A stretch of 24,187 nt of DNA, taken from NCBI GenBank assembly GCA_945882755.1, contig CAMCWS010000023.1:1-24187 (forward strand). Direction: 5' to 3'. The translations under genes and the position numbers were made by a program. The notes beneath the pieces are model-generated. The model saw nothing but the letters and a program-made list of their open reading frames with translations. It made no database searches and was not told the origin of the DNA. This DNA is from Bordetella parapertussis. GTDB lineage: Bacteria > Pseudomonadota > Gammaproteobacteria > Burkholderiales > Burkholderiaceae_C. The first letter of the stretch is position 1, and each line of letters starts with the position of its first letter. Shown here in pieces: positions 2,765 through 23,544 of this stretch.

Positions 2765-3811
2765 TCAAGCGCCAAAAAGCTTCAACATCTTTGCTACCTC
2801 TGGCGTTAATCCCATGGTCTTGAGCTGAACATGGGGATGGGCCGCGGCAAAAACTCGAAAGACCTCATCCACAAACGCCTGCCCAACGGTTTGCACGCCT
2901 TCAAAGTCGAGGATGACTGTCTTGAATTGTGTAGCGCGTTCTGTCACCCATTTGGCTTGCGATCGCGAAACGAGTTCGCTGCTGAGCTGTGCCAAGCGAA
3001 CTGGAATTTCAGTGGTGTGAAAAGCGTCTGCGCCCACCTCGGTTGGTTCGAAGTACTTCAGGTAGACATCGTTGGCCTTGCGTTGGGTTTGTATCGCCAA
3101 GTCCATGCGCACCAAGGTCTGCATGGCGCTGGGCTTGAGGCAAGCTTGGGCATTCATCCACGCAAACGGGGGCAGCGCATCCGCTGTATCGTGCGGATCA
3201 AAACGCAAGCCACCGGATTCAATGGCAAAGCCGTCCATCATCCGCGAGGATACAAACACACCGATGCCCGAATGTCCTTGCGGCGCAGTTGTGAACTTGC
3301 CCTTGGCCAACTCCAACAACGCCAAACGGGTGTCAAACAAATGGGCAGCCTTCGCAATCTTGGCAAAAATGCCCACCCCGTCATCCGCCACAAGCATTTG
3401 CAAACGCCCGCCATGCACATGCATGCCCATCGCGACTTGCTGCGCCTGAGCATGGTCCAACACGTTGTTGAGCATTTCCGTGAATGCAATATTGGCAAGG
3501 TTGCGCACATTGGCGCTGACATCTTTTAGCAGCGGCGCAAGGTGTTGCTCCCACACCGCCATTTCACCACCTTGCTGGGCGATAGCTTGGACGGGCTGTA
3601 CGGCCGACCAAAAGCGCATAGCGCCAAGAGAGTAGGTCTGCCGTGTGCCGCTCCCATGGCGCTGCAGATAGCCGGTATCAGCCAACTTCTTAATTCGACG
3701 CGAAACCGCCACCCGACTCAAGCCGGTTTGCGCGGTCGCCTCCCCCGCCAAGCCTTCGCCTTGGGCAGCGCAAGCCAAGATGATTGAGTCGTTGAGGTCT
3801 AGGGATTGCAT
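2765..3811 (-). CDS. Winged-helix / GHKL ATPase / STAS-like (DUF4325) regulator
   Basis: A 348-residue protein with three recognisable parts. Residues ~5-60 form a winged helix-turn-helix (GLSRVAVSRRIKKLADTGYLQRH region, a MarR/ArsR-like recognition helix and wing). Residues ~100-195 are a GHKL (HATPase_c) ATP-binding domain with an N-box (E112, N116 in FTEMLNNVLDH), a G1 box (DDGVGI, 143-148) and a G2 box (GHSGIG, 179-184). Residues ~265-345 match the STAS-like DUF4325 fold (VILDFEGVQTVGQAFVDEVF). This looks like a partner-switching regulator, with anti-sigma-kinase-like and STAS modules, merged with a DNA-binding domain. The target is unknown. It is monocistronic and convergent with gatB. 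There is no strong SD before ATG 3811. A repeat-rich region directly upstream may be its own operator. Confidence 0.85.
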   Translation of the reverse strand: MQSLDLNDSIILACAAQGEGLAGEATAQTGLSRVAVSRRIKKLADTGYLQRHGSGTRQTYSLGAMRFWSAVQPVQAIAQQGGEMAVWEQHLAPLLKDVSANVRNLANIAFTEMLNNVLDHAQAQQVAMGMHVHGGRLQMLVADDGVGIFAKIAKAAHLFDTRLALLELAKGKFTTAPQGHSGIGVFVSSRMMDGFAIESGGLRFDPHDTADALPPFAWMNAQACLKPSAMQTLVRMDLAIQTQRKANDVYLKYFEPTEVGADAFHTTEIPVRLAQLSSELVSRSQAKWVTERATQFKTVILDFEGVQTVGQAFVDEVFRVFAAAHPHVQLKTMGLTPEVAKMLKLFGA

Positions 3812-3942: not shown

Positions 3943-4350
3943 TCAATGCCCCCCAACCCAGTTCTCCACCTTCAGCTCTGAATAGGCCGCGAAATCTGAC
4001 ACATTGTTGGTGACCAATGTCACGCCCATGGAAACGGCGTGTGTGGCGATCAATTTGTCCAGCGCATCACGTTGTCTCTCGCGGGTGGCCAAGCGGGCGG
4101 GGCCATAGACGGCCGCGGCCGCACCATCAAATGGTGCGGCAGGTACCTCTTGCAAGAAGGCGTCCAAGGCTTTTCGGTTGCGTGCTCGTTGAGTGCCCGA
4201 ACATGCCACGCCATATTCCAACTCGGCCTGTGTGATAGCGGAAATCACCACATCGCCGACATAACATTGTGCAAACCGTTCTGCCACCTCAGGTGGTTGG
4301 TGCTTCATGAGGTAGATGCAGATGTTGGTGTCGAGCATGTATCTGGCCAT
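3943..4350 (-). CDS. vapC: Type II toxin VapC, PIN-domain ribonuclease
   Basis: A 135-residue PIN-domain protein. VapC toxins are Mg2+-dependent endoribonucleases that cut tRNA or rRNA. Catalytic acidic residues are visible: D7 in MLDTNICIYL, E43 in ITQAELEYG, D98 in ALDKLIATHA, and the terminal TNNVSDF segment with D119. Length and motif order are those of the common chromosomal VapC group. The start ATG (4348-4350) shares one base with the vapB stop (TAATG), so the two are translationally coupled. The stretch around residues 84-98 is more divergent than usual, but all acidic positions are kept, so the toxin looks intact. Confidence 0.93.
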   Translation of the reverse strand: MARYMLDTNICIYLMKHQPPEVAERFAQCYVGDVVISAITQAELEYGVACSGTQRARNRKALDAFLQEVPAAPFDGAAAAVYGPARLATRERQRDALDKLIATHAVSMGVTLVTNNVSDFAAYSELKVENWVGGH

Positions 4351-4586
4351 TAAAGGGCCTCTCGTTCAGCTTGCTCCTGCTCACCGCGGCCAGCTGACAT
4401 GAAGTTGGGAGAAAAGCTTGAAAGCACCTTCATGACATTGCCCATTCGACGTTGAGCGGGCCGAATACGCAGCTCTTCACCCACGCGCTCAATCACCAGC
4501 TCCATGTCGCCGGAAGAAAAAGCGAGCTCTGCAGGGATTCTGACGGCTTGTGAATTGCCGTTTTTGAACAATCGGGTGGTGGCCAT
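4350..4586 (-). CDS. vapB: Type II antitoxin VapB, AbrB/SpoVT-type
   Basis: A 78-residue antitoxin. The N-terminus, TTRLFKNGNSQAVRIPAEL, is a classic AbrB/MazE-type swapped-hairpin DNA-binding domain, followed by VIERVGEELRIRP. The C-terminal ~30 residues (GNVMKVLSSFSPNFMSAGR and a Glu-rich tail) would wrap around and block VapC. An AGAAGGG sequence just upstream of ATG 4586 serves as ribosome-binding site. It is transcribed ahead of vapC with a 1-bp overlap, and a perfect palindrome upstream is the likely binding site for VapB or VapBC autoregulation. Confidence 0.93.
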   Translation of the reverse strand: MATTRLFKNGNSQAVRIPAELAFSSGDMELVIERVGEELRIRPAQRRMGNVMKVLSSFSPNFMSAGRGEQEQAEREAL

Positions 4587-4652: not shown

Positions 4653-6374
4653 TTACAAAATTGTGGTTTTTCCACTCCCTCTCACTATCAACCCCTGCGC
4701 CAGATAGTAAGTAGCCAAGACCCACAAACCGGCATAAGGCAAGGGGCTGACAAACTTATCGATGGCCAGCAGGGTGTCAGAGAGCATGAAGCTCACGCTG
4801 CCCCAAGCCACCCACACACTCGCCGCCGAGCCCAGGTGCTTGGCGCGGCCCCAAGCCTGTGCGGCCATGGTGGCAATCACCAACACATAAGCAGCAACAG
4901 GCACACGCAGTTCGGAGGGCAGGCCGTTTTGGTCCAAGCCCACAAAAATCACTGCGGCTGCAGAAATGGCGATGGCCACCGCACGTCGGCTATGAAGCCA
5001 CGGCGCATCTTGTCTAAAGAGTTGTATGAAGCTCAGGTGTGCCAGCAAAAACGCCACCAATCCATACACAAACATGCCTTCCCCCATCAGCAGCACATCT
5101 CCCGCCAGCGACAAAGCCAAAGCTGCCATCAACCAAGCGCGGCCCTTGGTACCTGCTGACCCTTGCCACGCCGCAAAGATCAAGACCAACAAAGCCAAGG
5201 GTTTGGCCCACAGGTATACCTCGCTCCAGCCACAGGCATTGGCAGCAGTCGCCAAGGCGGCGGCTTGCACAAAGGCGCACATGGCGGGACTGAGTCGGTT
5301 TTGCAGCATGGCGTTCAAGCCCCACAAACCTGCACTCACCGCCAACACGCAAGTAGCGGCCTCGCCCCACACCATGCCGTCCATGAACCACAAGACGCCA
5401 GACGCACAACTGAGCAGCACCACAAACCACAGCATGGCCCATCGCTGCACAGCCGCAGACTGCACGGGCTGAAACGCGGGAAAGTTGTGGATGTCAAAGG
5501 CTTTGGCGGGAAAGCGCTGGGCCACATCCGCAGGACGCCAACCAGGGTGGCGAAACCACACCATCAGCTTGTCTCGCCAACGCTTGGCGTGCCAGCTGTC
5601 GTGGGCCAAGTCGGTGTAAATCTGCAAGTTGGCCCACAGCGGGTCCCAGCTGTTCAAAGCTTTGCGGCTGCCGTACACACAAGGCTCACGGCTGTCTTCT
5701 TCTTGAAAGCTGCCAAACAGACGGTCCCATACCACCCAGATGCCGCCGTAGTTGCGGTCTACATACTTGTCATTCACAGCATGGTGCACACGGTGGTTGG
5801 AGGGAGAGCAAAACCAACGGTCAAACCAACCCAAGCGACCAATGTGTTCGGTATGCACCCAGTATTGGTAAAGCAAATCGATCAGCGCGACGATGCCAAA
5901 CACCACGGGTGGCACACCCAGCAAGGCCATGGGCAGGTAAAACACCCAACTGGTCAATGCACCAGCGCTGCTTTGACGCAGTGCGGTGGACAAGTTGTAG
6001 TGCTGGCTTTGGTGGTGAACCGTGTGGCCCGCCCAAAACACCGCCACCTCGTGGCTGCAACGATGGAACCAGTAATAGCAAAAGTCATATAACACCAAAG
6101 CCAATAAAGCGCCGTACCAGGTGCTCCACCAAGCGTCATTACGCACCAAGGCCACTTGCTCGAACACCAAGGTGTAAATGCCAATACGTAGCAAACGGGT
6201 GAACACCGCGCTGATTTGGCTCAGGATGCCCAGCGAGATGCTGCTGATGGCGTCGTCTAGGCGGTAGGTTTGCGCGGACGCTTGACCTTGTTGAGCCAGC
6301 CTCCTGCCCCAAAGCCACTCTATGAATATCAGGCCAAAAAACACTGGCGACGCCAACACAATGATGTAACCCAT
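4653..6374 (-). CDS. Alkylglycerol monooxygenase-like (sterol desaturase family) fused to YhhN/lysoplasmalogenase-like domain
   Basis: A 573-residue polytopic membrane protein with two enzyme-like halves. Residues ~1-265 are a fatty acid hydroxylase/sterol desaturase domain with di-iron histidine boxes HRCSH (104-108), HTVHH (117-121) and NHRVHH (193-198). The flanking text HTVHHQSQHYNLSTALRQS and KYVDRNYGGIWVVWDRLFG resembles alkylglycerol monooxygenase (AGMO/TMEM195), which cleaves O-alkyl glycerol ethers. Residues ~380-565 match YhhN/TMEM86: KPLALLVL (391-398), SLAGDVLLM (422-430), GLVAFLLAHLSF (438-449), SFMLSDTLLAIDKF (528-541) and a YYLAQGLI end (556-563). TMEM86 proteins hydrolyse the vinyl-ether bond of lysoplasmalogens. 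Substrates here are inferred. It is followed by vapBC on the same strand, with no obvious functional link. Confidence 0.88.
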   Translation of the reverse strand: MGYIIVLASPVFFGLIFIEWLWGRRLAQQGQASAQTYRLDDAISSISLGILSQISAVFTRLLRIGIYTLVFEQVALVRNDAWWSTWYGALLALVLYDFCYYWFHRCSHEVAVFWAGHTVHHQSQHYNLSTALRQSSAGALTSWVFYLPMALLGVPPVVFGIVALIDLLYQYWVHTEHIGRLGWFDRWFCSPSNHRVHHAVNDKYVDRNYGGIWVVWDRLFGSFQEEDSREPCVYGSRKALNSWDPLWANLQIYTDLAHDSWHAKRWRDKLMVWFRHPGWRPADVAQRFPAKAFDIHNFPAFQPVQSAAVQRWAMLWFVVLLSCASGVLWFMDGMVWGEAATCVLAVSAGLWGLNAMLQNRLSPAMCAFVQAAALATAANACGWSEVYLWAKPLALLVLIFAAWQGSAGTKGRAWLMAALALSLAGDVLLMGEGMFVYGLVAFLLAHLSFIQLFRQDAPWLHSRRAVAIAISAAAVIFVGLDQNGLPSELRVPVAAYVLVIATMAAQAWGRAKHLGSAASVWVAWGSVSFMLSDTLLAIDKFVSPLPYAGLWVLATYYLAQGLIVRGSGKTTIL

Positions 6375-6380
6375 GGATTT

Positions 6381-6402
6381 GCCCTGTTAATACAGCAAGG
6401 GC
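6381..6402. repeat. Short inverted repeat upstream of the AGMO-YhhN gene
   Basis: GCCCT (6381-6385) and AGGGC (6398-6402) can pair. An alternative inner pairing is CTGT (6384-6387) with ACAG (6392-6395). It lies 7-28 bases before the start codon of the minus-strand gene, in its probable leader and overlapping the ribosome-binding region. It could be a weak translational control hairpin or chance. Confidence 0.25.
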
Positions 6403-6416
6403 GATATTAATGCATC

Positions 6417-6501
6417 AGATTGCTTCGCTGCGCTCGCAATGACGGGAGGCAGCTCTCAATGACGGAAAGATGTCACTGCGAGGCCGAAGGCCGAAGCAGT
6501 C
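6417..6501. repeat. Dispersed GTCATTGCGAG/GAAGCAATC-type intergenic repeat, inverted pair
   Basis: Two related arms in opposite orientation. The first, 6418-6444, reads GATTGCTTCGCTGCGCTCGC and then AATGACG. The second, 6471-6501, reads TGTCACTGCGAGGCC, GAAGGCC and GAAGCAGTC. The first arm's complement (CGTCATTGCGAG...GAAGCAATC) matches the second, so the block can fold into a long hairpin. A partial third copy of the end (CTCAATGACGG) lies between. Closely similar arms recur at 24021-24131. The second arm runs into the mltA stop codon (6500-6502), so the element forms part of the gene's 3' end. This is a REP-like dispersed element known in many bacteria. It may act as a terminator or mRNA-stabilising structure. 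Confidence 0.8.
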
Positions 6502-7726
6502 AAGGCTTAGGCCACAAAGCCCATAAACGCAAGGGTTGTTTCAAGCGCCCCGCCACTTCACCGGCGTCTCGGCCTGTACCCATGAAAAAATCCGCACGCA
6601 CTGCCCCCACGATAGCACTGCCCGTGTCTTGCGCTAACACCAAGCGCGACAAGGCTTGGGTGGGGCCAGGCGACACCAACCACAGCGGCGTGCCATAGGG
6701 GATGCTGAGTGGATCGATGGCCACCGAGCGCCCAGCGACCAGCGGTATGCCCTGTGCACCGCGCGGACCCACACTGGGGTCGGCCCCCATGGGCTCTTCT
6801 TTGAAAAACACATAACGCGGATTGGTCCAAAGCAATTCTTGGCGACGCTGCGGGTTGCGCTGCAACCACGCCTTGATGCCCGGCCACGAGGCGTCGCGTG
6901 TTTCGCCTTTGTCCAGCAACCATCTGCCTACACTTTGGTAGGGCTGATCATTGGACGCGGCAAAGCCCACACGGACGGTGCGTACACTGCCATCGGGCTC
7001 GGTGATGCGCAGTCTGCCGGATCCTTGGATGTGCAAAATCAAAGCATCCACTGGGTCGGCCAACCATGCAATCTCGCGGCCACGCAAAGCGTTTTGTGCC
7101 GCAGGCAGGCTTTCTATGTCTTGGCGGGTGAACCAAGGCTTGCCATTCCCTGCACCCGGCGGGGTGGCATACAAAGGGGTATTAAAGCCATTGCCTGCCA
7201 AACGCTGTGCCTCGAACACCGGTTCATAGTAGGCGGTGAGCAAGCCACTGGTTTCACCTTCCAAAGACTCCAAGCGGTAAGCCTGCAAGCGACTGAGTAA
7301 CAACAAGCGCTGCTCGGTTTCGCTGGCAATGCTCAGGCGTCGTATATCACTGCACAAGGGGGCGAGCACCGTGCCGCTGACATCGCAATTGGCCAGCAAC
7401 AATGTCCACACCTCGGCCATGGACTCTTGCGGCCAGCCGGGCAACTCTTCGATGGGCACCGGCACCCAGCGGCTTTTGCTCTCGCCTTTGACCGGTGGCT
7501 CAAAACGCGGCGCAGCCTGTGGCACAGTGGGTTGACTGAGCGGCGGGCTGGTCACTGGCGCGGGCTTGACGCTTTCAGGACGCAGCACTGGCGGCGCGGC
7601 AGAGGGCGCAGGCAGACTGGTGGGCCTAGGCACCGAAGAAGCGCAGGACACCAGCATGCCTACAATCGCCACGCTCCATGCTGCGCGGTAAGGCAGCGTC
7701 CAACCTATCCATACATCTGAAAACAT
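6500..7726 (-). CDS. mltA: Membrane-bound lytic murein transglycosylase A
   Basis: MltA cleaves the beta-1,4 bond between MurNAc and GlcNAc in peptidoglycan, forming a 1,6-anhydro end, and is tethered to the outer membrane. From ATG 7726 the protein has 408 residues with a lipoprotein signal ending at LVSC (C28), then a Pro/Ser-rich linker (~30-85). The MltA domain carries SGLLTAYYEPVFEA and LHIQGSGRL, and the C-terminal 3D domain carries VAIDPLSIPYGTPLWL, then LAQDTGSAIVGAVRADFFMG with the conserved aspartates. The open frame continues upstream to ATG 7792, but that start adds an odd hydrophilic leader before the signal peptide. No clear SD is seen before 7726. The start overlaps, on the opposite strand, the ATG of a small plus-strand ORF. 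Confidence 0.93.
   Translation of the reverse strand: MFSDVWIGWTLPYRAAWSVAIVGMLVSCASSVPRPTSLPAPSAAPPVLRPESVKPAPVTSPPLSQPTVPQAAPRFEPPVKGESKSRWVPVPIEELPGWPQESMAEVWTLLLANCDVSGTVLAPLCSDIRRLSIASETEQRLLLLSRLQAYRLESLEGETSGLLTAYYEPVFEAQRLAGNGFNTPLYATPPGAGNGKPWFTRQDIESLPAAQNALRGREIAWLADPVDALILHIQGSGRLRITEPDGSVRTVRVGFAASNDQPYQSVGRWLLDKGETRDASWPGIKAWLQRNPQRRQELLWTNPRYVFFKEEPMGADPSVGPRGAQGIPLVAGRSVAIDPLSIPYGTPLWLVSPGPTQALSRLVLAQDTGSAIVGAVRADFFMGTGRDAGEVAGRLKQPLRLWALWPKP
7661..7666 (+). promoter_or_regulatory. Possible -10 element for the small plus-strand ORF
   Basis: TACAAT, a common -10 variant in this bacterial group, lies about 60 bases before the ATG of the 44-residue ORF at 7725. The -35 region at 17-bp spacing (GAAGCG) is poor, so this is only a weak promoter call, and it falls inside the 5' part of mltA. 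Confidence 0.25.
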
Positions 7727-7859
7727 GCTGCTGATTTTGCTTGAATCCCTGGGTGCTGGCTTGCTGCTGGCGTTCATCGTGTGGTGGACCATGTTTCATG
7801 GTCGTAACAAAGGCGAACCAGAAGACAAAGAACGCGACAAAGATAACGGCAAAGACTGA
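7725..7859 (+). CDS. Small single-span membrane protein (44 aa), hypothetical
   Basis: An ORF from ATG 7725 to TGA 7857-7859. It encodes MLLILLESLGAGLLLAFIVW at the N-terminus, then WTMFHGRNKG and a charged Glu/Asp/Lys tail. The layout is one clear transmembrane helix (residues ~2-24), a basic cap, and a hydrophilic cytoplasmic tail, a common design for genuine small membrane proteins. It ends exactly one base before the nit stop codon on the other strand, and otherwise fills the whole gap between mltA and nit. Its ATG overlaps the CAT of the mltA start. No good SD is seen. Function is unknown. It could be spurious, but the hydrophobic-then-charged layout and the exact fit argue for a real gene. 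Confidence 0.5.
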   Translation: MLLILLESLGAGLLLAFIVWWTMFHGRNKGEPEDKERDKDNGKD

Positions 7860-8678
7860 TCATCCCAGCGGTGAGCGGCGCAGGGGCAACTGCTGTCGGC
7901 GCTCGCGCAATTGATCGATAGACAAATCAGCCAGCACACAGGCCTCGCCCTCGTCTTGCACCGCTTGTACCTGACCCCAAGGGTCTACCCACATCGAATG
8001 CCCCCAAGTGCGGCGGCCGTTGCTGTGCTTGCCGCCTTGCGCTGCAGCACCTACCCAGGCTAAGTTGTCAATCGCACGCGAGCGTAACAACACTTCCCAG
8101 TGGGCAGAGCCGGTGGTGTGTGTGAAGGCGCTGGGTGCGAGCAGCAACTCGGCACCTTGCTGCACCAATTGGCGGTACAGCTGAGGAAAGCGCAGGTCGT
8201 AACAGACGCTCAAACCAATGCGCCACGTATGGCCATCTTTGGAAGGCAAATCCATCACCACCGGCGTGTCCCCGGCTTGCAGCACCACGCTTTCGTCGTA
8301 GCTTTCGCGGCCATTGTCAAAGCAAAACAAATGGATTTTGTCGTAACGCGCCATGCATTCGCCTTGGGCGTTGTAAACCAAGGTGGTGTTGCGCACATGC
8401 GAACTGTCGCCTGGAACAGCAATCGGCAAAGTACCCGCCACCAAGCACACGCCATAGGTCTTGGCCATGGCGGCCAAGCGCCGCTGCATGGGGCCGTCAC
8501 CATAGGCTTCGGCGATGGCCAATTTGTCGGTGTCGTGCTGACCTAGCAAACAAAAATACTCTGGCAATACAGCCAATTCGGCACCTGCGTGGGCAGCTTG
8601 CGCCAGCAAGCGCTCAGCGGTGTCGAGGTTGGTAGCCACATCAGTGGTGGAGACCATTTGCAGCAAAGCGGCTTTCAT
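7860..8678 (-). CDS. Carbon-nitrogen hydrolase, Nit1/deaminated glutathione amidase-like
   Basis: A 272-residue nitrilase-superfamily amidase with the full catalytic triad: E40 in AVLPEYF, K114 in RYDKIHLF and C159 in GLSVCYDLRFPQLYR. The FDNGRESYDES segment (120-130) and the RRTWGHSMWVDPWG block near the C-terminus place it in the Nit1/NIT2-like branch. Such enzymes repair deaminated glutathione or act as omega-amidases on 2-oxoglutaramate. Which substrate applies cannot be told from sequence alone. The start overlaps the yhdP stop by 4 bp (ATGA), so it is translationally coupled to yhdP, a pairing frequent in betaproteobacteria. Cytosolic, no signal peptide. Confidence 0.92.
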   Translation of the reverse strand: MKAALLQMVSTTDVATNLDTAERLLAQAAHAGAELAVLPEYFCLLGQHDTDKLAIAEAYGDGPMQRRLAAMAKTYGVCLVAGTLPIAVPGDSSHVRNTTLVYNAQGECMARYDKIHLFCFDNGRESYDESVVLQAGDTPVVMDLPSKDGHTWRIGLSVCYDLRFPQLYRQLVQQGAELLLAPSAFTHTTGSAHWEVLLRSRAIDNLAWVGAAAQGGKHSNGRRTWGHSMWVDPWGQVQAVQDEGEACVLADLSIDQLRERRQQLPLRRSPLG

Positions 8679-15483: not shown

Positions 15484-15952
15484 CCAAGGCGCTGGTGGAG
15501 TAGCCGCTGACAAAAGGAATGGACACGGCATGTCCACCCCAGCTGCGCACGGTCGCGGTCTCTTGCAAGATTTCCATGTCGTAGTCCCCGCCTTTGACAT
15601 ACACGTCGGGACGCAACAGCTCGATCAGTTGCACCGGCGTGTCTTCGTCAAACCAAGTCACCAAGCTGACCGAGGCCAGCGCGGCCAGCAACAAGGCTCT
15701 GTCTTGCTGAGCGTTCAAGGGGCGCTCAGGCCCTTTGCCCAAGCGCTTGGCAGACGCGTCGGTATTGACACCCACCACCAAGCTCGCCCCCAAGGCGCGT
15801 GCCTGCTCTAAGTAGGTGGCGTGGCCACGGTGCAAAACATCGAAAACGCCATTGGTGAACACCACCGGCCCCAAGTGACGCAGCGCCTGCAGCCGCGCCA
15901 AGGCTTTGTCAGCCTCGCACACTTTGTTGGCAAAACCCAGGGTTTGGCTCAT
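15449..15952 (-). CDS. rfaE2: D-glycero-beta-D-manno-heptose 1-phosphate adenylyltransferase
   Basis: A 167-residue stand-alone nucleotidyltransferase, also named HldC or the C-terminal half of HldE. It makes ADP-heptose for the lipopolysaccharide inner core from heptose 1-phosphate and ATP. Motifs are FTNGVFDVLHRGHATYLEQA (32-51) with the HxGH signature at 41-44, GVNTDASAKRLGKGPERP (61-78), VKGGDY (119-124) and SGYSTSALV (149-157). Length fits the single-domain form. The kinase domain is absent, so hldA/rfaE1 should be elsewhere. The start shares an ATGA with the stop of the MerR-type regulator upstream, so both are cotranscribed. The 3' end overlaps glnE tail-to-tail. Confidence 0.95.
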   Translation of the reverse strand: MSQTLGFANKVCEADKALARLQALRHLGPVVFTNGVFDVLHRGHATYLEQARALGASLVVGVNTDASAKRLGKGPERPLNAQQDRALLLAALASVSLVTWFDEDTPVQLIELLRPDVYVKGGDYDMEILQETATVRSWGGHAVSIPFVSGYSTSALVTKIQSATKPQ

Positions 15953-16893
15953 GGTTTACGCTTGCGCCAACGCTGCACCTGCACCTCGATTTGCGCCAAA
16001 TCGGCAATCACCGTGATGCCCGCAGGTGGGCGACGCTGCAACACGGGTGCGCGACCACCGGCCCAAATCTCGACTTGCGCTGGCAAGAGTCGGCGCAACT
16101 CGGCCAAGCCATCCAGCACATGGTTGGGGTTTTGGCTGATGCTAAAGCTCAGCGCCACGATATCGGGTTGATGCACCTGAGCGGCTTTGGCGATATCGCT
16201 CAAGGGTGTTTTCACTCCCATGGGCAGGCAGTGACAGCCTTGCGAGGTCAAGAGACTCTCAGCCATGAGCAAGCCCACCGCATGCTCTTCTTGCGGAAAA
16301 GTGGTGAGCAACACGCGGGGTTGGCGTTGCAGGGCATGGCTGCTGAGTTGGTGAATGGCTTGGCGCAGCACGCCGGTGGCGCACTCGGTGAACATATGCT
16401 CTTCAAACACTTGGATTTCGGCGCGCATCCAAGCATCACCCACCATGGTGGTCAAAGGTGCGAGCAGTTCGATGATGAAGCGATTGACCCCTAAGCTGGC
16501 CACAGTTTGGTGTAAATGGCTACGCAAGCCATCAATATCTTGGGCACGCAACAAGCCCATGGCCTGGTCGAGCAGTTGACCCACACCGTCTTTGCCACGC
16601 GCAAGGGCCATGGGGCCGGCAGTCAATGCCTCGGTGATGCTTTGCAATTGCTCGACAGACAGGGCCACGACTTGACCTGGGCGGTGACCGGCATCCAGTA
16701 AACGTTTGATGATGCGCAGTTTTTCCACTTGCGCCAAGGGGTAGCTGCGTTCGCCAAAGCTGTCTCGTCCTGGCTGGGGAAAGCCATAGCGACGCTCCCA
16801 CACGCGCAATGTATCCTTGCCTATGCCCGTGTCCCGCTCGACAGCGGCTATCGAAAAATGAAGGTTTTTCGACTCGCCTTCGCTCAAATCCAT
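15949..16893 (-). CDS. MerR-family regulator with cobalamin-binding domain (CarH/LitR-like, putative B12 photoreceptor)
   Basis: A 314-residue protein. Residues ~11-80 are a MerR helix-turn-helix (FSIAAVERDTGIGKDTLRVW, then ERRYGFPQPGR). Residues ~100-185 form the helical-bundle cap with the exact W-x9-EH signature (W155, E165, H166) that holds adenosylcobalamin's adenosyl face in CarH. Residues ~192-310 are a B12-binding Rossmann domain with E-x-H-x-x-G (E202, H204, G207; H204 the lower axial ligand), SFSIS (249-253) and GG (279-280). CarH and LitR proteins repress in the dark as AdoCbl tetramers and release DNA on light-driven Co-C cleavage. All light-sensing residues are present, so this is probably a photoreceptor, not a B12-independent paralogue. 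Divergent from the lipid operon, which is the probable target. Confidence 0.9.
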   Translation of the reverse strand: MDLSEGESKNLHFSIAAVERDTGIGKDTLRVWERRYGFPQPGRDSFGERSYPLAQVEKLRIIKRLLDAGHRPGQVVALSVEQLQSITEALTAGPMALARGKDGVGQLLDQAMGLLRAQDIDGLRSHLHQTVASLGVNRFIIELLAPLTTMVGDAWMRAEIQVFEEHMFTECATGVLRQAIHQLSSHALQRQPRVLLTTFPQEEHAVGLLMAESLLTSQGCHCLPMGVKTPLSDIAKAAQVHQPDIVALSFSISQNPNHVLDGLAELRRLLPAQVEIWAGGRAPVLQRRPPAGITVIADLAQIEVQVQRWRKRKP

Positions 16894-16970
16894 AGGGTTA
16901 TTTTCTTAAAAACATACTGCTAAGCACATATGTCATAGACAATAGCATAAAACCTCTTGGGAACACCTCC
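16894..16970. promoter_or_regulatory. Divergent control region between the CarH/LitR-like gene and the lipid operon
   Basis: A 77-bp AT-rich spacer in otherwise GC-rich DNA. It contains AACATA at 16911-16916 and TATGT at 16929-16933, forming an ACATA-N12-TATGT dyad, with a perfect ACATATGT palindrome at 16926-16933. Putative -35 and -10 pieces on both strands (for example minus-strand TTGTCT, complement of 16937-16942) overlap the dyad, but no promoter is strong. MerR/CarH-type repressors usually bind imperfect dyads that cover their promoter, so this is the best candidate operator for both directions. Confidence 0.5.
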
Positions 16971-17573
16971 ATGCAAACACTGCTTAAACCGTTTTTTAAA
17001 ACCCTCTTCTTGGCTGCCTTGTCTGTGGCTCCCGCGGTTTGGGCAGCCGACCCCAAGCCTGCAACCCCCACCAGTTCCAGCGCTCAGTGCCCGACACTGC
17101 TGCGCCACACCGTTGAACGCTTGCAAGACGAAAAGCCCCAAAACCTTTGCCAGTACGCGGGTCAGGTGGTGGTGGTGGTCAACACCGCCAGCTACTGCGG
17201 CTTTACGCCACAGTACAAATCGCTAGAAGCCCTGTACGACAAGTACAAAGACAAAGGCTTGGTGGTGCTGGGCTTCCCCTCCAACGATTTTTCCCAAGAG
17301 CCTGGCAACAACCAGAAAATTGCTGACTTTTGCGAAAACACCTATGGCGTGAAGTTCCCCATGTTCAGCAAAACCACAGTGCGCGGCAGTGACGCCTCAC
17401 CTTTGTTCAAACAACTCACCCAAGCAACAGATACCGCTCCCAAGTGGAACTTTTACAAATACCTTGTTAGCCGGGACGGCAAACAGGTCAAAAGCTACAA
17501 CAGCACCACCGACCCCATGGACAAAGCCTTTTTGGCCGAGGTTGAGAAACAGCTGAGCACACGAGTGAACTGA
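16971..17573 (+). CDS. Exported glutathione peroxidase-like thiol peroxidase
   Basis: A 200-residue protein with a Sec signal peptide (basic KPFFK, hydrophobic TLFLAALSVA, cleavage likely at AVWA-AD near residue 25), so it acts in the periplasm. The glutathione peroxidase fold shows the peroxidatic Cys76 in NTASYCGFTPQY, a GFPSNDFSQEPG loop (101-112) and the W159-N160 pair in KWNFYKYLV. The usual catalytic Gln of the NQF loop is Asp106 here, a variant I recall from exported bacterial members. C121 (FCENTYGVKFP) could be the resolving cysteine, which would make it thioredoxin-like-dependent. It probably reduces lipid hydroperoxides. First gene after the regulator; its stop overlaps the next start by one base (TGATG). 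Confidence 0.92.
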   Translation: MQTLLKPFFKTLFLAALSVAPAVWAADPKPATPTSSSAQCPTLLRHTVERLQDEKPQNLCQYAGQVVVVVNTASYCGFTPQYKSLEALYDKYKDKGLVVLGFPSNDFSQEPGNNQKIADFCENTYGVKFPMFSKTTVRGSDASPLFKQLTQATDTAPKWNFYKYLVSRDGKQVKSYNSTTDPMDKAFLAEVEKQLSTRVN

Positions 17574-18880
17574 TGCGCCAACGGGTAGCGGTGATCGGCT
17601 CAGGCATCGCTGGTTTGTCAGCTGCCCACCATTTAAACAACCATGTGGACCTCAGCTTGTTCGAGGCTGGCAGTTACTTTGGCGGCCACACCCACACGGT
17701 AGACGTGACTTTGCCGAGCCCCCAAGGCACGGTCACCCACGGCGTGGACACTGGCTTTTTGGTTTACAACCAACGCACCTACCCAGGGCTGATCAGCTTG
17801 TTTGAAAGCCTCGACATCCGCACCGCCGCTTCGGACATGTCGTTTTCGGTGCAAGCGCACTGGGACGACACAGGCAAGGTGTTGGAGTGGAATGGCGCCA
17901 ACTTGAACAGCGTGTTTGCCCAACGCAGCAACCTTTTGCGTCCGCGCTTTTGGGGCTTGCTCAGAGACATCATGCGGTTTAACCAGCTGGCCACCGACTT
18001 GGCCCAAAGTGGGCAAGCAGACGCTTTGACGCAACCTTTGCAACAGTTTTTGGATGAACACCGCTTTGGCAGCGCATTTCGCCAAGGCTATTTGCTGCCC
18101 ATGCTCGGCTGCATCTGGAGTTGCCCGACCACCCAAATGCTGCAGTTTCCGGTGGCCACCATGGTGCGCTTTTGTGACAACCATGGCTTGCTGCAAGTCA
18201 ACAACCGCCCGCCGTGGTTCACGGTGGCAGGGGGTGCCAAGCACTATGTCCAAGCCATCACCGACCGCATCAGCGACAAACGCTTGAACACCCCTGTGCT
18301 GGGCATTGCCCGCGACGCGCAGGGCGTGCAGATTCGCACCGCCCAAGGCGTCGAACGTTTCGACCAGGTGGTGTTGGCTACCCATGCCGACCAATCGCTG
18401 GCTTTGTTAGAGCGTCCCAGCATCGATGAACAGGCTTTGCTGGGCGCGATCCGCTTTCAAGCCAACCGCGCGGTCTTGCACACCGACACCCGCGTCATGC
18501 CCCAGCGGCGCTTGGCTTGGGCCGCATGGAATTACCAACGCACCCAAGACTACAGCGAAAGCGCTCGCGTTTGTTTGCACTATTGGCTCAACCGACTGCA
18601 ACCCCTGCCATTCAAGCAAGACGTGATCGTCTCGCTTAACCCCGCCTCGCCGATTGACCCCGCCACGATTTTGGGCAGCTACGACTACGACCACCCGGTG
18701 TTCGATTTGCCAGCTATTGCAGCCCAAAACCAGTTGCCGCGTTTGCAGGGCCAACAGCGCACCTGGTATGCCGGTGCTTGGATGCGCTTTGGCTTTCATG
18801 AAGACGGCTACCAAGCCGGCTTGGCAGCGGCGAAAAGCTTGCTGGCCCAACACACCCACCCGCAAGAGGCTTTGGCGTGA
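17573..18880 (+). CDS. NAD(P)/FAD-dependent oxidoreductase (amine-oxidase fold, COG2907)
   Basis: A 435-residue flavoprotein. The N-terminal dinucleotide-binding motif VAVIGSGIAGLSAAHHL has G9-x-G11-x-x-G14, with E31 for the ribose. GGHTHTVDV (37-45) and HGVDTGFLVYNQRTYP (56-71) follow. The C-terminal FAD segment is YAGAWMRFGFHEDGYQAGLA. No signal peptide. COG2907 members are persistently found beside DUF1365 and cfa-like methyltransferases, and this position suggests it oxidises or desaturates a methylated fatty acyl chain in the membrane. The substrate is inferred. In furan fatty acid synthesis a desaturation step (UfaD) is required, but I cannot tell which enzyme family here does it. Next start overlaps its stop as GTGA. 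Confidence 0.88.
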   Translation: MRQRVAVIGSGIAGLSAAHHLNNHVDLSLFEAGSYFGGHTHTVDVTLPSPQGTVTHGVDTGFLVYNQRTYPGLISLFESLDIRTAASDMSFSVQAHWDDTGKVLEWNGANLNSVFAQRSNLLRPRFWGLLRDIMRFNQLATDLAQSGQADALTQPLQQFLDEHRFGSAFRQGYLLPMLGCIWSCPTTQMLQFPVATMVRFCDNHGLLQVNNRPPWFTVAGGAKHYVQAITDRISDKRLNTPVLGIARDAQGVQIRTAQGVERFDQVVLATHADQSLALLERPSIDEQALLGAIRFQANRAVLHTDTRVMPQRRLAWAAWNYQRTQDYSESARVCLHYWLNRLQPLPFKQDVIVSLNPASPIDPATILGSYDYDHPVFDLPAIAAQNQLPRLQGQQRTWYAGAWMRFGFHEDGYQAGLAAAKSLLAQHTHPQEALA

Positions 18881-19659
18881 GCTCTGCTCAGCCGCTCATC
18901 GGTTTTGGCCAAGTTCGCCACAGCCGTGCGCGGCCTCGCCGCCACGCATTTGCCTACCCCACTTGGTTTTTGCTGCTGCCCATGCGTAGCTTGGCAAAGC
19001 AGCCCGCTGCTGGATTGGCGCTGAACCGGCGTGCAGCCATTTCTTTTCACGATGCTGACCACGGCGATGGTCGATCGGTCGCGCAAGGCGGCGCACTGGC
19101 TTGGCTGGATGAATTGCTACAAAGCCAAAACATTCATGACGCGCAAGGCGAGGTGTGGCTGCACTGCTATGCACGGGTGTGGGGCTATGCCTTCAAACCG
19201 GTCAGCTTTTGGTATTGCCACCGCAGCGACAACAGCTTGGCTGCCATCGTGGTGGAAGTGAACAACACTTTTGGCGAACGCCATTGTTATGTCTTGCCCC
19301 AACCCCATTACGGTCAAACCCTGCACGCCGACAAGGTGTTTCATGTGTCGCCCTTTTGCCATGTGCAAGGTCGCTATGACTTTCGCTTCATGCGTGCCGA
19401 GCGTGAGGGTGAGTTCAAAACCGTGGTGCGCATCGACCACCGCGATGCCGACGGGCTGCTCATCAGCACCAGCGTGAGCGGCAAGTTACAACCCCTGACT
19501 GCCCAATCGCTGCGCCAAGCGCTGTGGCGCTATCCTTTGCAAAGTTTTGGGGTGATTGCCCGCATCCATTGGCAAGCGTTGGGCCTGTGGCTCAAGCGTG
19601 TCCCCTTTGTGCGCAAACCCCCGCCCCCTGCAGAATTTGCCACCCGTGGCGGTCTGTGA
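18877..19659 (+). CDS. DUF1365 family protein (COG3496)
   Basis: A 260-residue DUF1365 protein beginning at GTG 18877, which overlaps the preceding TGA. Family marks are the N-terminal RHSRARP (14-20), GYAFKPVSFWYCH (103-115), EVNNTFGERHCY (127-138) and KVFHVSPF (153-160), rich in His, Cys and aromatic residues as if for a metal or haem-like active site. The biochemical function is unknown. It always travels with a COG2907 flavoprotein and a cyclopropane-synthase-like gene, here on both sides, which implies a step in the same acyl-chain modification. No signal peptide or clear transmembrane helix; it may sit on the inner membrane surface. The next gene starts 33 bp later. Confidence 0.9.
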   Translation: MSSAQPLIGFGQVRHSRARPRRHAFAYPTWFLLLPMRSLAKQPAAGLALNRRAAISFHDADHGDGRSVAQGGALAWLDELLQSQNIHDAQGEVWLHCYARVWGYAFKPVSFWYCHRSDNSLAAIVVEVNNTFGERHCYVLPQPHYGQTLHADKVFHVSPFCHVQGRYDFRFMRAEREGEFKTVVRIDHRDADGLLISTSVSGKLQPLTAQSLRQALWRYPLQSFGVIARIHWQALGLWLKRVPFVRKPPPPAEFATRGGL

Positions 19660-19692
19660 ATTTCGATTGATTTTTTGCCTGCGATTTGACCC

Positions 19693-20928
19693 ATGTCTAC
19701 CCTGCCTTCCACCCAACACTCCTCCTCTGCTGTCTTGACCCACAACGTGCCCATGGCAGCGCAGCGTGCCTTGCGAATGCTCGGTTCTTTGAGCGTAGGT
19801 GGATTGGGTGTGGAACTGCCCGATCAGCGTCAAATGACATTTGGATCCTCTCAAAGCGGCCCACAAGCCAGCATCCGCATCCACGACTGGGCGGTATTTG
19901 CTGCGGCCATGCGCTCAGGCGACATTGGTTTTGCTGAAAGCTACATTGCCGGTGATTGGGATACGCCCGACCTCACCACCTTGTTGCAACTGCTGGTGGC
20001 CAACCGTCGCCCTATGGACGATTTGATTTTTGGCACTTGGTGGGGGCGCTTGGCCTACCAAATACGCCACTGGATGCGGCGCAACACCAAAAAGAACAGC
20101 AGCAAAAACATCCATGCCCACTACGACTTGGGCAACGGTTTTTACAGCCAATGGCTAGACCCCAGCATGTCTTATTCCTCGGCATGGTTTGACAACGACC
20201 CAAGCCAAGACCTGCAAACCGCGCAACACGCCAAGGTGCGCCGTGCCTTGCGCATGGCCGGTGTAGAAGCGGGAGCGGGTCAGCGCGTATTAGAGATTGG
20301 TTGTGGCTGGGGCGGCTTGGCAGAAATTGCCGCTCGCGAATTTGGGGCCAAGGTAACGGGCATCACCCTCAGCCCCTCGCAGCTGGCCTATGCCAGCGAA
20401 CGCCTAGGCGCACAAGCCATCCATGCCGACTTGCGCTTGCAAGACTACCGCGATACCAACGACGGTCCTTATGACGCGATTTGCTCGATTGAAATGATCG
20501 AAGCCGTGGGGCGTGCCTATTGGCCCACCTATTTCCAAACCATCGCACGTTTGCTCAAACCCGGGGGTCAGGCCTGCATCCAAAGCATTGTGATCGACGA
20601 CGCCTTGTTTGAGCGCTATGCCTTGGGTACGGACTTTATTCAGCAATATATTTTTCCAGGCGGCTTCTTGCCCAGCAGCAGCGAGTTCAAGGCGCAAGCG
20701 CAAGCGGCGGGCTTGCAAGTCGTCGACAGTTTTGCCTTTGGCCAAGACTACGCCGAAACCTTAAAGCGTTGGCGCGAAACCTATGTGCAAGCTTTGCCGC
20801 GCATGAACGACCTGGGCTTTGACCAACGCTTTGAGCGCACCTGGGTGTTTTACTTGGCTTATTGCGAAGCCGCGTTTTTAGAGCGCAACACCGACGTGGT
20901 GCAGTTCACTTTGCGCAAACCTGCATGA
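19693..20928 (+). CDS. SAM-dependent fatty acid methyltransferase, cyclopropane-fatty-acid synthase family (UfaM/CfaA-like)
   Basis: A 411-residue protein of the CFA family, which methylates the double bond of phospholipid acyl chains. The order of motifs is normal: NIHAHYDLGNGFYSQWLD (139-156), SYSSAWF (160-166), SAM motif I LEIGCGWGG (200-208), EMIEAVG (267-273), DFIQQYIFPGGF (314-325) and the conserved C391 in the C-terminal YCEAAF. Family members either make cyclopropane rings or, as with UfaM, add a methyl group without ring closure on the way to methylated or furan fatty acids. Which product forms here is not decidable by eye. The DUF1365 and COG2907 context favours the UfaM-like option. 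Its stop is overlapped by the MFS start (ATGA). Confidence 0.9.
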   Translation: MSTLPSTQHSSSAVLTHNVPMAAQRALRMLGSLSVGGLGVELPDQRQMTFGSSQSGPQASIRIHDWAVFAAAMRSGDIGFAESYIAGDWDTPDLTTLLQLLVANRRPMDDLIFGTWWGRLAYQIRHWMRRNTKKNSSKNIHAHYDLGNGFYSQWLDPSMSYSSAWFDNDPSQDLQTAQHAKVRRALRMAGVEAGAGQRVLEIGCGWGGLAEIAAREFGAKVTGITLSPSQLAYASERLGAQAIHADLRLQDYRDTNDGPYDAICSIEMIEAVGRAYWPTYFQTIARLLKPGGQACIQSIVIDDALFERYALGTDFIQQYIFPGGFLPSSSEFKAQAQAAGLQVVDSFAFGQDYAETLKRWRETYVQALPRMNDLGFDQRFERTWVFYLAYCEAAFLERNTDVVQFTLRKPA

Positions 20929-22211
20929 CCGCTGCCACTGGCAACCCGCTGAGTGCCTGGGCCTTGGTGCGTTTGGGGCTGCCTGCGCTACCGCTGGCTT
21001 TTGTGGCGCTGCCTTTGTATGTGCTGTGGCCGCATTACTTTGCCAGCCAGTTCGGCGTGTCGCTTTCCTTGATCGGCGGCTTGCTGTTGTTGGCCAGGGC
21101 CTTGGACGCCCTGATCGACCCCAGCATTGGCCACTGGTTAGACAAGCTTTATGCACACAGCCCCAAGAGTGTATTGCGCCGGGCTTGGCTGGCAGCGCTT
21201 TTGCTGGCCCTGAGTTTTGTCGGTTTGTTTTTCCCGCAATGGCTGCTTGGGCGCAGCGTGGGGCAAGCCGATTTGCTGCTGTTGGTCGGCGCCTTGTTAC
21301 TGGTTTGTTATCTGAGCTACAGCGTCCTCACCATAGCGCTGCAAGCTTGGGGTGCACGCATGGGTGGGGACAGCTTGGCGCGAAGCCGCTTGGTGGGTTG
21401 GCGTGAAGGCTTGGGACTGGCGGGTGTGATCTTGGCTTCCTTGGTGTCTGGCTTGGCTGGGATCGCTGAACTGGTAGCGGTGTTTGTCGGTGTGCTGATT
21501 TTGGCCATGCTGTCATGGAGTGGAGCCGTGCAGCCCGCCCCCAGCCCTGACACGCCCAACATCCGTTGGTGGTCTTCGCTTTGGCAGCCTTGGCAAGACA
21601 GAGCGTTTCTTCGCTTGCTGGGTGTGTTCATGGTCAATGGCATCGCTTCAGCCATTCCGGCCACCTTGATCGTATTTTTTGTGCAAGACCGCCTGCAACT
21701 TGGCGCTGAGATGCAGGCGCAGTTTTTGGGCACTTACTTTGTTGCGGCGGCTGTGTCTATGCCGCTGTGGCTGCGATTAATTGCGCGTTTTGGGCTGCGC
21801 TCTTGCTGGGCTGCTGGTATGGCCTTGGCCATTGCGGTGTTTATCTGGTCGTTGGCGCTGGGCGCAGGAGACGTGTGGGGCTACACCGTCATTTGTGCGC
21901 TCTCAGGACTTGCGTTGGGCGCAGATTTGATCGCGCCTGGCGCGTTGCTCAACGGCGTGCTGCAAACTGAAAATCAGCAACACCCCCACGCGGGTGCCTA
22001 CTTTGGCTGGTGGCAAGTCGCTACCAAGCTGAACTTGGCACTCGCCGCTGGTGTCGCCCTGCCTTTGCTAGAGTGGCTGGGCTACACCCCTGGCGCACAA
22101 GACGCCCCCGCCTTGGCAGCGCTCAGTTGGTCGTATGCCTTGCTGCCCTGTGCTTTGAAATGTCTGGCGCTGCTGTTGTTGCGCAAAGCGTCTCGTGTAT
22201 CGCTTAAATAA
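20925..22211 (+). CDS. MFS transporter, GPH (glycoside-pentoside-hexuronide) type
   Basis: A 428-residue membrane protein with about 12 hydrophobic segments. I choose ATG 20925, which overlaps the previous stop by 4 bp, because the longer frame from 20862 lies inside the methyltransferase gene. The first pair of helices shows LARALDALIDPSIGHWLDK, the R-x-x-D-A-x-x-D-P type signature of GPH/MFS_2 symporters. GPH carriers usually move sugars with cations. In this lipid cluster it might instead move a lipid-related or head-group substrate, a guess from context only. Related cfa/DUF1365 clusters in alphaproteobacteria also carry a sugar/cation-symporter-type gene, so its presence is a recurrent trait. 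Confidence 0.85.
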   Translation: MTAATGNPLSAWALVRLGLPALPLAFVALPLYVLWPHYFASQFGVSLSLIGGLLLLARALDALIDPSIGHWLDKLYAHSPKSVLRRAWLAALLLALSFVGLFFPQWLLGRSVGQADLLLLVGALLLVCYLSYSVLTIALQAWGARMGGDSLARSRLVGWREGLGLAGVILASLVSGLAGIAELVAVFVGVLILAMLSWSGAVQPAPSPDTPNIRWWSSLWQPWQDRAFLRLLGVFMVNGIASAIPATLIVFFVQDRLQLGAEMQAQFLGTYFVAAAVSMPLWLRLIARFGLRSCWAAGMALAIAVFIWSLALGAGDVWGYTVICALSGLALGADLIAPGALLNGVLQTENQQHPHAGAYFGWWQVATKLNLALAAGVALPLLEWLGYTPGAQDAPALAALSWSYALLPCALKCLALLLLRKASRVSLK

Positions 22212-22220
22212 GGAGTCTGT

Positions 22221-22757
22221 ATGAAACGCCGCTTATGGTTATCCGCTGCCGCCGCCACCGCCTTGGGTGCGAGCGGCTGTGCTGGCCCGTCCATCAACGA
22301 CTATGCCCAAGAAAAGCCCATACTGGACTTGAAAACCTATTTCAATGGCGTGATCGACGCCTGGGGCGTGTTCACCGATCGCTCGGGGCGTGTGGTGAAA
22401 CGCTTCACCGTGGTGATGAACTGCAGTTGGAACGGCGAGCAAGGTGTGCTGGATGAAGACTTTGTCTACTCAGACGGCAGCACCCAAAAACGCATTTGGA
22501 AACTGCAACACCTTGGCAACGGTAACTACAGCGGTGCAGCCGATGATGTGGTGGGGCTAGCCAATGGCGCGACCCGAGGCAACACCTTTCGCTGGGGCTA
22601 CACCTTGGCTTTGCCCGTAGACGGTCGTGTCTGGGAGGTGCAATTCGATGACTGGATGTACCTGATGAACGATCGCGTGATGCTCAACAAAGCCAGCATG
22701 TCCAAGTTTGGCGTGTTTTTGGGTGAGGTCACCTTGTCGTTCACCAAGCGGGCTTGA
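22221..22757 (+). CDS. DUF3833 family lipoprotein
   Basis: A 178-residue protein with a strong ribosome-binding site (AAGGAG, 8 bases before ATG 22221). The N-terminus MKRRLWLSAAAATALGASGC is a lipoprotein signal, with Cys20 the lipidated residue after an ASG box, so it is anchored in the envelope. DUF3833 marks include YFNGVIDAWGVFTDRSG (40-56), FTVVMNCSW, DEDFVYSDGSTQKRIW, and the C-terminal DDWMYLMNDRVMLNKASMSK. Function is unknown, but the DUF3833 family recurs next to cfa-like and DUF1365 genes. A beta-barrel, lipocalin-like lipid carrier is a reasonable guess. The SDR gene starts at or just after its stop. Confidence 0.9.
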   Translation: MKRRLWLSAAAATALGASGCAGPSINDYAQEKPILDLKTYFNGVIDAWGVFTDRSGRVVKRFTVVMNCSWNGEQGVLDEDFVYSDGSTQKRIWKLQHLGNGNYSGAADDVVGLANGATRGNTFRWGYTLALPVDGRVWEVQFDDWMYLMNDRVMLNKASMSKFGVFLGEVTLSFTKRA

Positions 22758-22759
22758 GC

Positions 22760-23542
22760 ATGGCGTGGCTCAGCCCTTTCAACACACCGCTGAATGACTG
22801 GCGTGGTCGCAGCGTGTGGTTGGTGGGCGCGTCCAGCGGCATTGGTTTGGCTTGCGCCAAAGCCTTACACGCACAGGGTGCCAAGGTATGCGTGTCGGCA
22901 CGTCAAGCGGATTTGCTGCAACAGTTTGCAGACCAACACCCTGGCAGCACGGCCCTGCCTTTGGATGTCACCGACAAACTGGCCATGCAAGCCGCTGCAC
23001 AACACCTCAGCGCGGCACAAGGTTTGGATGTGGTGGTGTATTGCGCCGGTGTCTACCAACCCCAACGCGCCACCGAATACAACCTGGCCAGCATGGAACA
23101 GCACATGGCGGTGAACTACCACGGCGCTTTGTTTTTGCTTGACGCTGTCTTACCCGTGTTGTTGCCCCAAGGCAAGGGCCACCTGAGCTTGGTCTCCAGC
23201 GTCGCCGGTTACCGCGGCTTGCCGCAAAGCTTGGCCTACGGTCCTAGCAAAGCCGCACTCACCCATTTGGCCGAGGCCTTGTATTTGGATTTGCAAGACA
23301 GCGGCATTGGCGTGAGCGTGATCAACCCGGGCTTTGTTGAGACACCGCTCACCGCGCAAAACCAGTTCACCATGCCTGCACTCATTACGTCGGATGAAGC
23401 GGCACAACACATCTTGAAGGGTTGGCGAGACGGTTTGTTTGAAATTCACTTTCCCAAGCGCTTCACACGTTGGTTGCAGTTGCTGCGCATCCTCCCCTAC
23501 CGCTGGTATTTTTCATTGGTGCGACGCGCCACAGGTTTGTGA
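22760..23542 (+). CDS. Short-chain dehydrogenase/reductase (SDR)
   Basis: A 260-residue classical SDR. The Rossmann motif is GASSGIG (23-29), followed by DV (69-70) for the adenine pocket, CAG (95-97, replacing the usual NAG), N119, S147, Y160 and K164. The catalytic tetrad Asn-Ser-Tyr-Lys is complete. I start at ATG 22760. TTG 22754 is in frame and overlaps the DUF3833 stop as TTGA, which would give 262 residues. The C-terminus (RWLQLLRILPYRWYF, SLVRRATGL) is basic and amphipathic, which suggests membrane association. In this cluster it may reduce or oxidise a lipid-derived carbonyl, as inferred from context. The next gene begins 2 bases after its TGA. Confidence 0.9.
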   Translation: MAWLSPFNTPLNDWRGRSVWLVGASSGIGLACAKALHAQGAKVCVSARQADLLQQFADQHPGSTALPLDVTDKLAMQAAAQHLSAAQGLDVVVYCAGVYQPQRATEYNLASMEQHMAVNYHGALFLLDAVLPVLLPQGKGHLSLVSSVAGYRGLPQSLAYGPSKAALTHLAEALYLDLQDSGIGVSVINPGFVETPLTAQNQFTMPALITSDEAAQHILKGWRDGLFEIHFPKRFTRWLQLLRILPYRWYFSLVRRATGL

Positions 23543-23544
23543 AC

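Follow-up and report, generated by a model that had tools for sequence, protein, structure and literature searches.

A fusion of alkylglycerol monooxygenase-like and YhhN/TMEM86-like halves as a candidate ether-lipid enzyme in the Burkholderiales

Alkylglycerol monooxygenase (AGMO, TMEM195; EC 1.14.16.5) hydroxylates the alkyl chain of its substrate at the position adjoining the ether oxygen, which yields a hemiacetal that decomposes to a fatty aldehyde. According to the available parts of the literature, its substrates are alkylglycerols and lyso-alkyl phospholipids (PMC3617469, PMC9131029), and residue positions of the human enzyme have been tied to activity or pterin binding by mutagenesis (PMC3617469, PMC7911779). 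The YhhN lysoplasmalogenases, such as human TMEM86A/B and the YhhN proteins of Legionella and M. tuberculosis, stand alone; in the sources as far as available, YhhN enzymes release aldehyde from lysoplasmalogens only when the sn-2 hydroxyl is free (PMC9052158), and eight functional residues of TMEM86A are given from mutations tested in TMEM86A/B (PMC11994398). Literature on alkylglycerol monooxygenase together with TMEM86 or lysoplasmalogenase includes PMC9131029 and PMC9471318; in the available parts of the literature joining AGMO with YhhN, a fusion goes unmentioned. The open-licence literature yielded no paper on lysoplasmalogenase with sterol desaturase, on YhhN with fatty acid hydroxylase or on bacterial AGMO, and no published account of an AGMO/YhhN fusion, which may be reported elsewhere.

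Domains and active-site residues

The window (the whole stretch of 24,187 nucleotides that was analysed) carries on its minus strand a gene for a protein of 573 amino acids (P0001; ATG at 6374-6372, TAA stop at 4655-4653), in which an N-terminal FA_hydroxylase (di-iron) domain is followed by a complete C-terminal YhhN domain. The features are:

4653..6374, minus strand: fusion gene P0001 (open reading frame, Pfam domains and protein matches)
5709..6107, minus strand: FA_hydroxylase (AGMO-like di-iron) domain, residues 90-222 (Pfam PF04116, 103.7 bits, cut-off 31)
6048..6065, minus strand: first His box HRCSHE, residues 104-109; E109 corresponds to AGMO Glu137, described as pterin-interacting (PMC3617469, available part)
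6012..6026, minus strand: second His box HTVHH, residues 117-121 (alignment to human AGMO positions)
5973..5975, minus strand: Gln134, corresponding to AGMO Gln162 (in 25/25 fusions and 1/25 generic FA_hydroxylases)
5853..5855, minus strand: His174, corresponding to AGMO His201 (residue comparison)
5781..5795, minus strand: third His box HRVHH, residues 194-198 (residue comparison)
5748..5759, minus strand: DRNY, residues 206-209, corresponding to AGMO D233, N235 and Y236 (residue comparison)
5724..5729, minus strand: Trp216-Asp217, corresponding to AGMO W243 and D244 (residue comparison)
5292..5489, minus strand: two membrane helices in common with the unfused AGMO-like tail, residues 296-361 (hhalign, 98.6-99.4%, the aligned stretch being residues 296-365)
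4677..5210, minus strand: YhhN (lysoplasmalogenase-like) domain, residues 389-566 (Pfam PF07947, 152.8 bits, cut-off 25.6)
5202..5204, minus strand: Lys391, corresponding to TMEM86A K43 (residue comparison)
5097..5102, minus strand: Gly425-Asp426, corresponding to TMEM86A G81 and D82 (residue comparison)
5037..5039, minus strand: His446, corresponding to TMEM86A H104 (residue comparison)
4800..4802, minus strand: Gly525, corresponding to TMEM86A G182 (residue comparison)
4776..4781, minus strand: Ser532-Asp533, corresponding to TMEM86A S189 and D190 (residue comparison)
4707..4709, minus strand: Tyr556, corresponding to TMEM86A Y213 (residue comparison)

An earlier note on this DNA had described the N-terminal half as AGMO-like, beyond a generic sterol desaturase, and the C-terminal half as YhhN/TMEM86. 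The motifs that it quoted (HTVHH, YNLSTALRQS and DRNYGGIWVVWDRLFG) are found in the translated minus-strand frame. Sixteen AGMO positions were compared (nine histidines, Q162, D233, N235, Y236, W243, D244 and Glu137), and P0001 carries all of them, the nine histidines included, within a domain well over the PF04116 cut-off. Human H132, H136, E137, H145, H148, H149 and Q162 fall on residues 104, 108, 109, 117, 120, 121 and 134 with identical spacing, and H201 to D244 on residues 174-217, likewise with identical spacing after one shift of a single residue. AGMO differs in that it ends in a C-terminal domain of its own where the fusion ends in YhhN.

The residue table comprises the locus proteins in classes of our own definition: 25 fusions (A), 58 unfused AGMO-like proteins (B), 21 members of the next subfamily (C) and 25 generic FA_hydroxylases (D). 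L062 (G028) is left out of the counts, as are six of the 33 host-family genomes with B (G101, G102, G105, G112, G091 and G047); the B matches of the first four contain one in-frame stop each. All 16 residues are present in 23/25 A, 33/58 B, 4/21 C and 0/25 D proteins; the set of the nine histidines with Q162, D233, N235, Y236, W243 and D244 is found in 24 of the 25 sampled fusions and in none of the 25 generic members. Singly, Q162 occurs in 25/25 A, 55/58 B, 17/21 C and 1/25 D, and Glu137 in 23/25 A, 35/58 B, 4/21 C and 6/25 D. A further set of named loci, the best 80 of at least 581 confirmed relatives from a pattern scan of a species-genome collection, shares some genomes with the sampled fusions; the nine histidines are present in 80 of these 80 and Glu137 in 75. 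The glutamate is missing, then, from 5/80 best named fusions, 2/25 sampled fusions and 23/58 B proteins. An AGMO review (residue sources PMC3617469, PMC7911779) states, in the part available, that Glu at position 137 occurs in no other family member; Glu137 alone is not diagnostic, since six of the 25 generic members have it. The set of Q162, D233 and E137 nevertheless argues for an AGMO-like N-terminal half, as the note had proposed.

The C-terminal domain of AGMO (AGMP_C, PF24858) gave no match at E<=1 in the 26 fusions scanned; 16 of the 58 unfused relatives matched at E<=1, the best with 26.6 bits, below the Pfam cut-off of 28.3. In the short unfused relatives (342-383 aa; e.g. L018, L045 and L046), the place of the pterin Glu is taken by Thr or Arg in 15 of 23 cases, as against mostly Glu in the fusions, and a shift of cofactor or substrate is possible. 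AGMO-like genes of 47-51% identity, annotated as sterol desaturase family protein, are also present on plasmids of Delftia and Pseudomonas aeruginosa.

The C-terminal half resembles the YhhN lysoplasmalogenases in the full Pfam domain, in eight predicted helices and in the eight functional residues, and differs from them in being joined to an AGMO-like oxygenase. P0001 and 25/25 sampled fusions have all eight TMEM86A residues, and each residue singly is present in 78 to 80 of the best 80 named fusions, one of them truncated at a contig end; the assignment to YhhN/TMEM86 in the earlier note thus agrees with the residue pattern. Judged by these residues, both active sites of the fusion appear to be preserved.

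Structure prediction, proposed in the same note for both sites, was informative for the YhhN half, which begins as an eight-helix unit at about residue 363 with pLDDT mostly >90, and less so for the di-iron half. The mean pLDDT of the fusion model is 77.7; since the catalytic part of the N-terminal half falls below 50 in the stretches 173-210 and 222-237, the model does not show how the two sites lie relative to each other. The model of L018, an unfused relative (57% identical), has a mean pLDDT of 94.4. The tail helices of the fusion lie at residues 307-333 and 336-357 in the model, and YhhN takes the position of two further C-terminal helices of the long unfused relatives (hhalign). These last two helices are lacking in 23 of the 58 unfused relatives (342-383 aa), as seen in the L018 model and deduced from length for the others.

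Distribution and origin of the fusion

Among the 120 best protein matches listed, 119 contain both Pfam domains, the remaining one (P0044) being marked partial. The profile search for each half and for the spread of the fusion, as suggested by the earlier note, gave PF04116 and PF07947 over their cut-offs in P0001 and the full fusion in 24 of 150 sampled host-family genomes (141 genera), with 55-62% identity and in some cases in single-contig genomes. The fusion is hence not an assembly artefact. An unfused AGMO-like gene (B, >270 bits) is present in 33 of the 150 genomes. Of 398 genomes sampled across the phylum, five have the fusion, all within the host family. The best 80 named loci are from Hydrogenophaga, Variovorax, Acidovorax, Polaromonas, Ramlibacter, Comamonas, Diaphorobacter, Curvibacter, Hylemonella and Caenimonas, with further records assigned only to order, class or phylum; 79 of the 80 match over both halves and one ends with its contig at residue 412. 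Fusions may possibly also occur outside these groups. The closest named record to P0001 among those listed (L133, 97% identical) is from a Comamonadaceae MAG. Each half has already been named automatically in the databases: the 120 listed matches bear the names 'alkylglycerol monooxygenase' (10/120 rows), 'lysoplasmalogenase family protein' or double names.

In a tree of the N-terminal half, all 26 fusions form one clade (100/99, 31 rows) within B, with five unfused proteins nested among them. The YhhN tree places 32 of the 39 separate YhhN proteins together in a single clade (100/99); those of G005, G015, G062, G121 and G137 group among the fusions, and two badly aligned rows stand at the root (L216, L218 and L231 are badly aligned; the YhhN of L245 was left out as too distant). 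The unfused B proteins (342-428 aa), among which the fusions nest, are 38-62% identical to the N-terminal half of P0001; they lack YhhN, and their long forms retain the two extra C-terminal helices.

The neighbourhood sample consisted of the best 80 named loci, the window and 29 B loci. The gene ruvB is a neighbour of the fusion in 58 of the best 80 named loci and of 16 of the 29 B genes (wide flanks), and is absent nearby in the window; fusion and B would therefore derive from one ancestral chromosomal place, the window being an exception. In the window and in nine named loci from the freshwater group closest to it, mltA is found upstream where others have ruvB (in the window at 6500-7792, on the strand of the fusion gene). 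Most simply, the fusion would have arisen once, when yhhN was joined to an AGMO-like gene already present beside ruvB, followed by losses of either half; the trees have several weak forks and some long-branched rows, and the counts fit, rather than prove, a single gain.

Unfused halves and the candidate activity

Within the host family, the unfused genes co-occur: YhhN is present in 24/33 genomes with B and in 13/91 without (odds ratio 16, Fisher 1.5e-9; fusions, the truncated G028 and G084 with its gene at a contig edge excluded). A size-stratified comparison of 116 genomes (eight of the 124 have no listed size and were left out) gives an odds ratio of 8.7, a value reached in 0/2000 within-size permutations. 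The effect is strongest in genomes of >=4.7 Mb (19/19 with B against 2/23 without) and weak in the two lower size classes (<4.7 Mb; 5/14 against 11/60). The control subfamily C shows no link with YhhN in the family (2/13 against 11/78, p=1). All of these statistics ignore phylogeny. Outside the family the association with B is also significant (17/25 against 82/361), but there, unlike within the family, C is associated as well (52/74 against 30/287); phylum-wide co-occurrence was rejected as evidence, phylogeny being a heavy confounder and the control associated too.

The neighbourhood of the unfused pair was judged by eye from coordinates of genes on the same contig. The pair lies within 2 kb in three of the 41 genomes holding both (G493, G480 and G462, none in the host family); no such neighbourhood was seen in the other 38, many of which are in several contigs. 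In G493 (L245), from another family of the same order, three genes are arranged in a row on one strand: an araC-type gene (5074-6102), yhhN (6188-6859) and, separated from yhhN by one base, the AGMO-like gene (6861-8078). G480 and G462 have a yhhN-araC pair convergent to the AGMO-like gene, and regulators 33-38% identical to the AraC of L245 adjoin AGMO-like genes of G128 and G294. AraC-type regulators at such genes would fit an inducible catabolic function. None was found near the fusion in the best 80 named loci, and the sampled fusions gave one weak match, about 5 kb off (L038). The earlier note had read the fusion as a Rosetta-stone hint of joint function, which is borne out by the co-occurrence of the unfused genes and by their neighbourhood in the three genomes; since related bacteria often carry both enzymes as separate genes, a common role in the breakdown of ether lipids is suggested.

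On balance we lean towards a bifunctional integral membrane enzyme that cleaves O-alkyl and vinyl-ether lysolipids. The N-terminal half would be an AGMO-type di-iron oxygenase using O2 and reduced pterin, which hydroxylates the first carbon of the O-alkyl chain of an alkylglycerol or lyso-alkyl phospholipid, so that the glycerol part and a fatty aldehyde are released as the hemiacetal breaks up. The C-terminal half would be a YhhN/TMEM86 lysoplasmalogenase that hydrolyses lysoplasmalogens at the vinyl ether, likewise releasing a fatty aldehyde, here together with the glycerophospho moiety. Both halves would take lipids with a free sn-2 hydroxyl and work in parallel on the saturated and vinyl-ether members of a single mixed pool that probably comes from other organisms, and the aldehyde would be oxidised as a carbon source or detoxified. 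The domains, the residue sets, their conservation, a tree compatible with a single origin, the co-occurrence of the unfused genes and their neighbourhood in three genomes are directly supported; we infer the reactions, the cofactor, the source of the substrates and the physiological role.

For ether-lipid biosynthesis, the CarF/PEDS1-type route (PF10520; the aerobic vinyl-ether-forming desaturase family) was considered, and was found in two of the 150 family genomes, one of them with the fusion. Plasmalogens would thus come from outside, since 23 of the 24 fusion genomes are without this route, and external substrates are probable on this gene content, in line with the environmental rather than self-made lipids supposed in the earlier note. 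Pterin-4a-carbinolamine dehydratase is encoded in 136/150 family genomes and in 23/24 with the fusion; a means to recycle reduced pterin is thus predicted for the fusion genomes, though a gene so nearly universal is uninformative for the fusion and not diagnostic.

The main rival is a different lipid substrate for the N-terminal half, which would be an AGMO-like hydroxylase of ornithine lipid (as OlsE) or of another membrane lipid, YhhN removing a lysolipid of the same process and the fusion marking a shared location or pathway. We regard this as rather unlikely. The sole NCBIfam match of P0001 is the ornithine-lipid hydroxylase OlsE (NF052566), a member of the same FA_hydroxylase superfamily, and bacterial AGMO activity was not found in the open-licence literature as far as available; the OlsE score of 63.5 bits, however, is far below the cut-off of 475 and places P0001 outside that family, and OlsE also matches 25/25 generic members scanned. 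The ornithine-lipid synthase-type domain PF13444 is present in 131/150 genomes and in 21/24 with the fusion, but at least one single-contig genome rated 100% complete (G073) has the fusion and no PF13444 match, and a role in ornithine lipids hardly explains the link of the gene with YhhN. As discriminators, the ornithine-lipid (PF13444) and pterin genes were discarded as too common in the genomes.

It appears improbable that the halves act in series, the di-iron half turning the alkyl ether in a lyso-plasmanyl lipid into a vinyl ether, by oxidation or desaturation, and the YhhN half then hydrolysing this product. A covalent link and equimolar amounts would suit successive steps, and the vinyl-ether former PEDS1/CarF resembles membrane desaturases and hydroxylases in its His motifs (PMC9131029, available part), but CarF belongs to a different Pfam family (PF10520), the N-terminal half bears the AGMO residue set, and AGMO chemistry splits the ether without a second enzyme. 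Least probable is a fusion with one active half, in which YhhN would anchor the protein in the membrane and stand in for the final two helices of the AGMO-like tail. YhhN does occupy the place of those helices in the longer unfused relatives, and each half is also found alone inside the fusion clades; an anchor, however, needs none of the eight YhhN residues kept in 25/25 sampled fusions, with which the named loci agree, and the 23 short unfused relatives manage without those helices. The simplest reading, which we favour by a modest degree, is that of parallel cleavages of saturated and vinyl-ether lysolipids to the same class of product. Of the ether-lipid fusion proposed in the earlier note, the AGMO-like and YhhN halves and the linkage of their unfused counterparts stood, while the C-terminal Pfam domain of AGMO was not recognised in the fusion.

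More tentatively, and with doubt prevailing, AGMO and lysoplasmalogenase might form an ancient bacterial module for the catabolism of lyso-ether lipids, seen as scattered genes, as an AraC-linked row and, in the Comamonadaceae, as a pterin-dependent bifunctional enzyme that clears plasmanyl and plasmenyl lysolipids, with animals keeping the pair as separate genes. If so, the fusion would offer bacterial versions of two membrane enzymes that are hard to work with (AGMO resisted purification, according to the available parts of reviews of 2013 and 2021; PMC3617469, PMC7911779), and would be the first bacterial AGMO as far as the open-licence literature searched shows. It would also give a genetic handle on ether-lipid breakdown by environmental bacteria, and a shared physiological pathway of AGMO and TMEM86 in animals would become testable.

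Genomic surroundings of the fusion gene

The commonest neighbour of the fusion, ruvB, is uninformative about lipids, and the largest neighbour clusters were rejected as real genes in so far as they are partly reading frames antisense to ruvB. Other clusters comprise a D-serine dehydratase-like gene and a phosphatase gene. In 14 of the best 80 loci (L149, L190, L191 and 11 others, mostly titled Variovorax), the fusion is followed 2-6 kb downstream by a same-strand gene with Hydrolase_4 (alpha/beta-hydrolase) and Methyltransf_20 domains.

In the window, genes for a MazE-type antitoxin (78 aa) and a VapC-like PIN toxin follow downstream of the fusion gene (3943-4586) and are likely a toxin-antitoxin pair. 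A protein encoded at 2765-3811 combines a histidine-kinase-like ATPase domain with a STAS-like DUF4325 domain and may be a regulator of the stress or anti-sigma type. The sequence CGTCATTGCGAGCGCAGCGAAGCAATC, which lies upstream of the fusion gene at 6418-6444, occurs as one copy in the window; we take it to resemble a short dispersed palindromic repeat. Further off (15949-24000), a CarH-like MerR/B12-binding regulator on the minus strand faces a plus-strand row of genes with glutathione peroxidase, FAD amine oxidase, DUF1365, CMAS (cyclopropane-fatty-acid-synthase-like), MFS, DUF3833, SDR and SnoaL domains, possibly a light-controlled operon for lipid modification.
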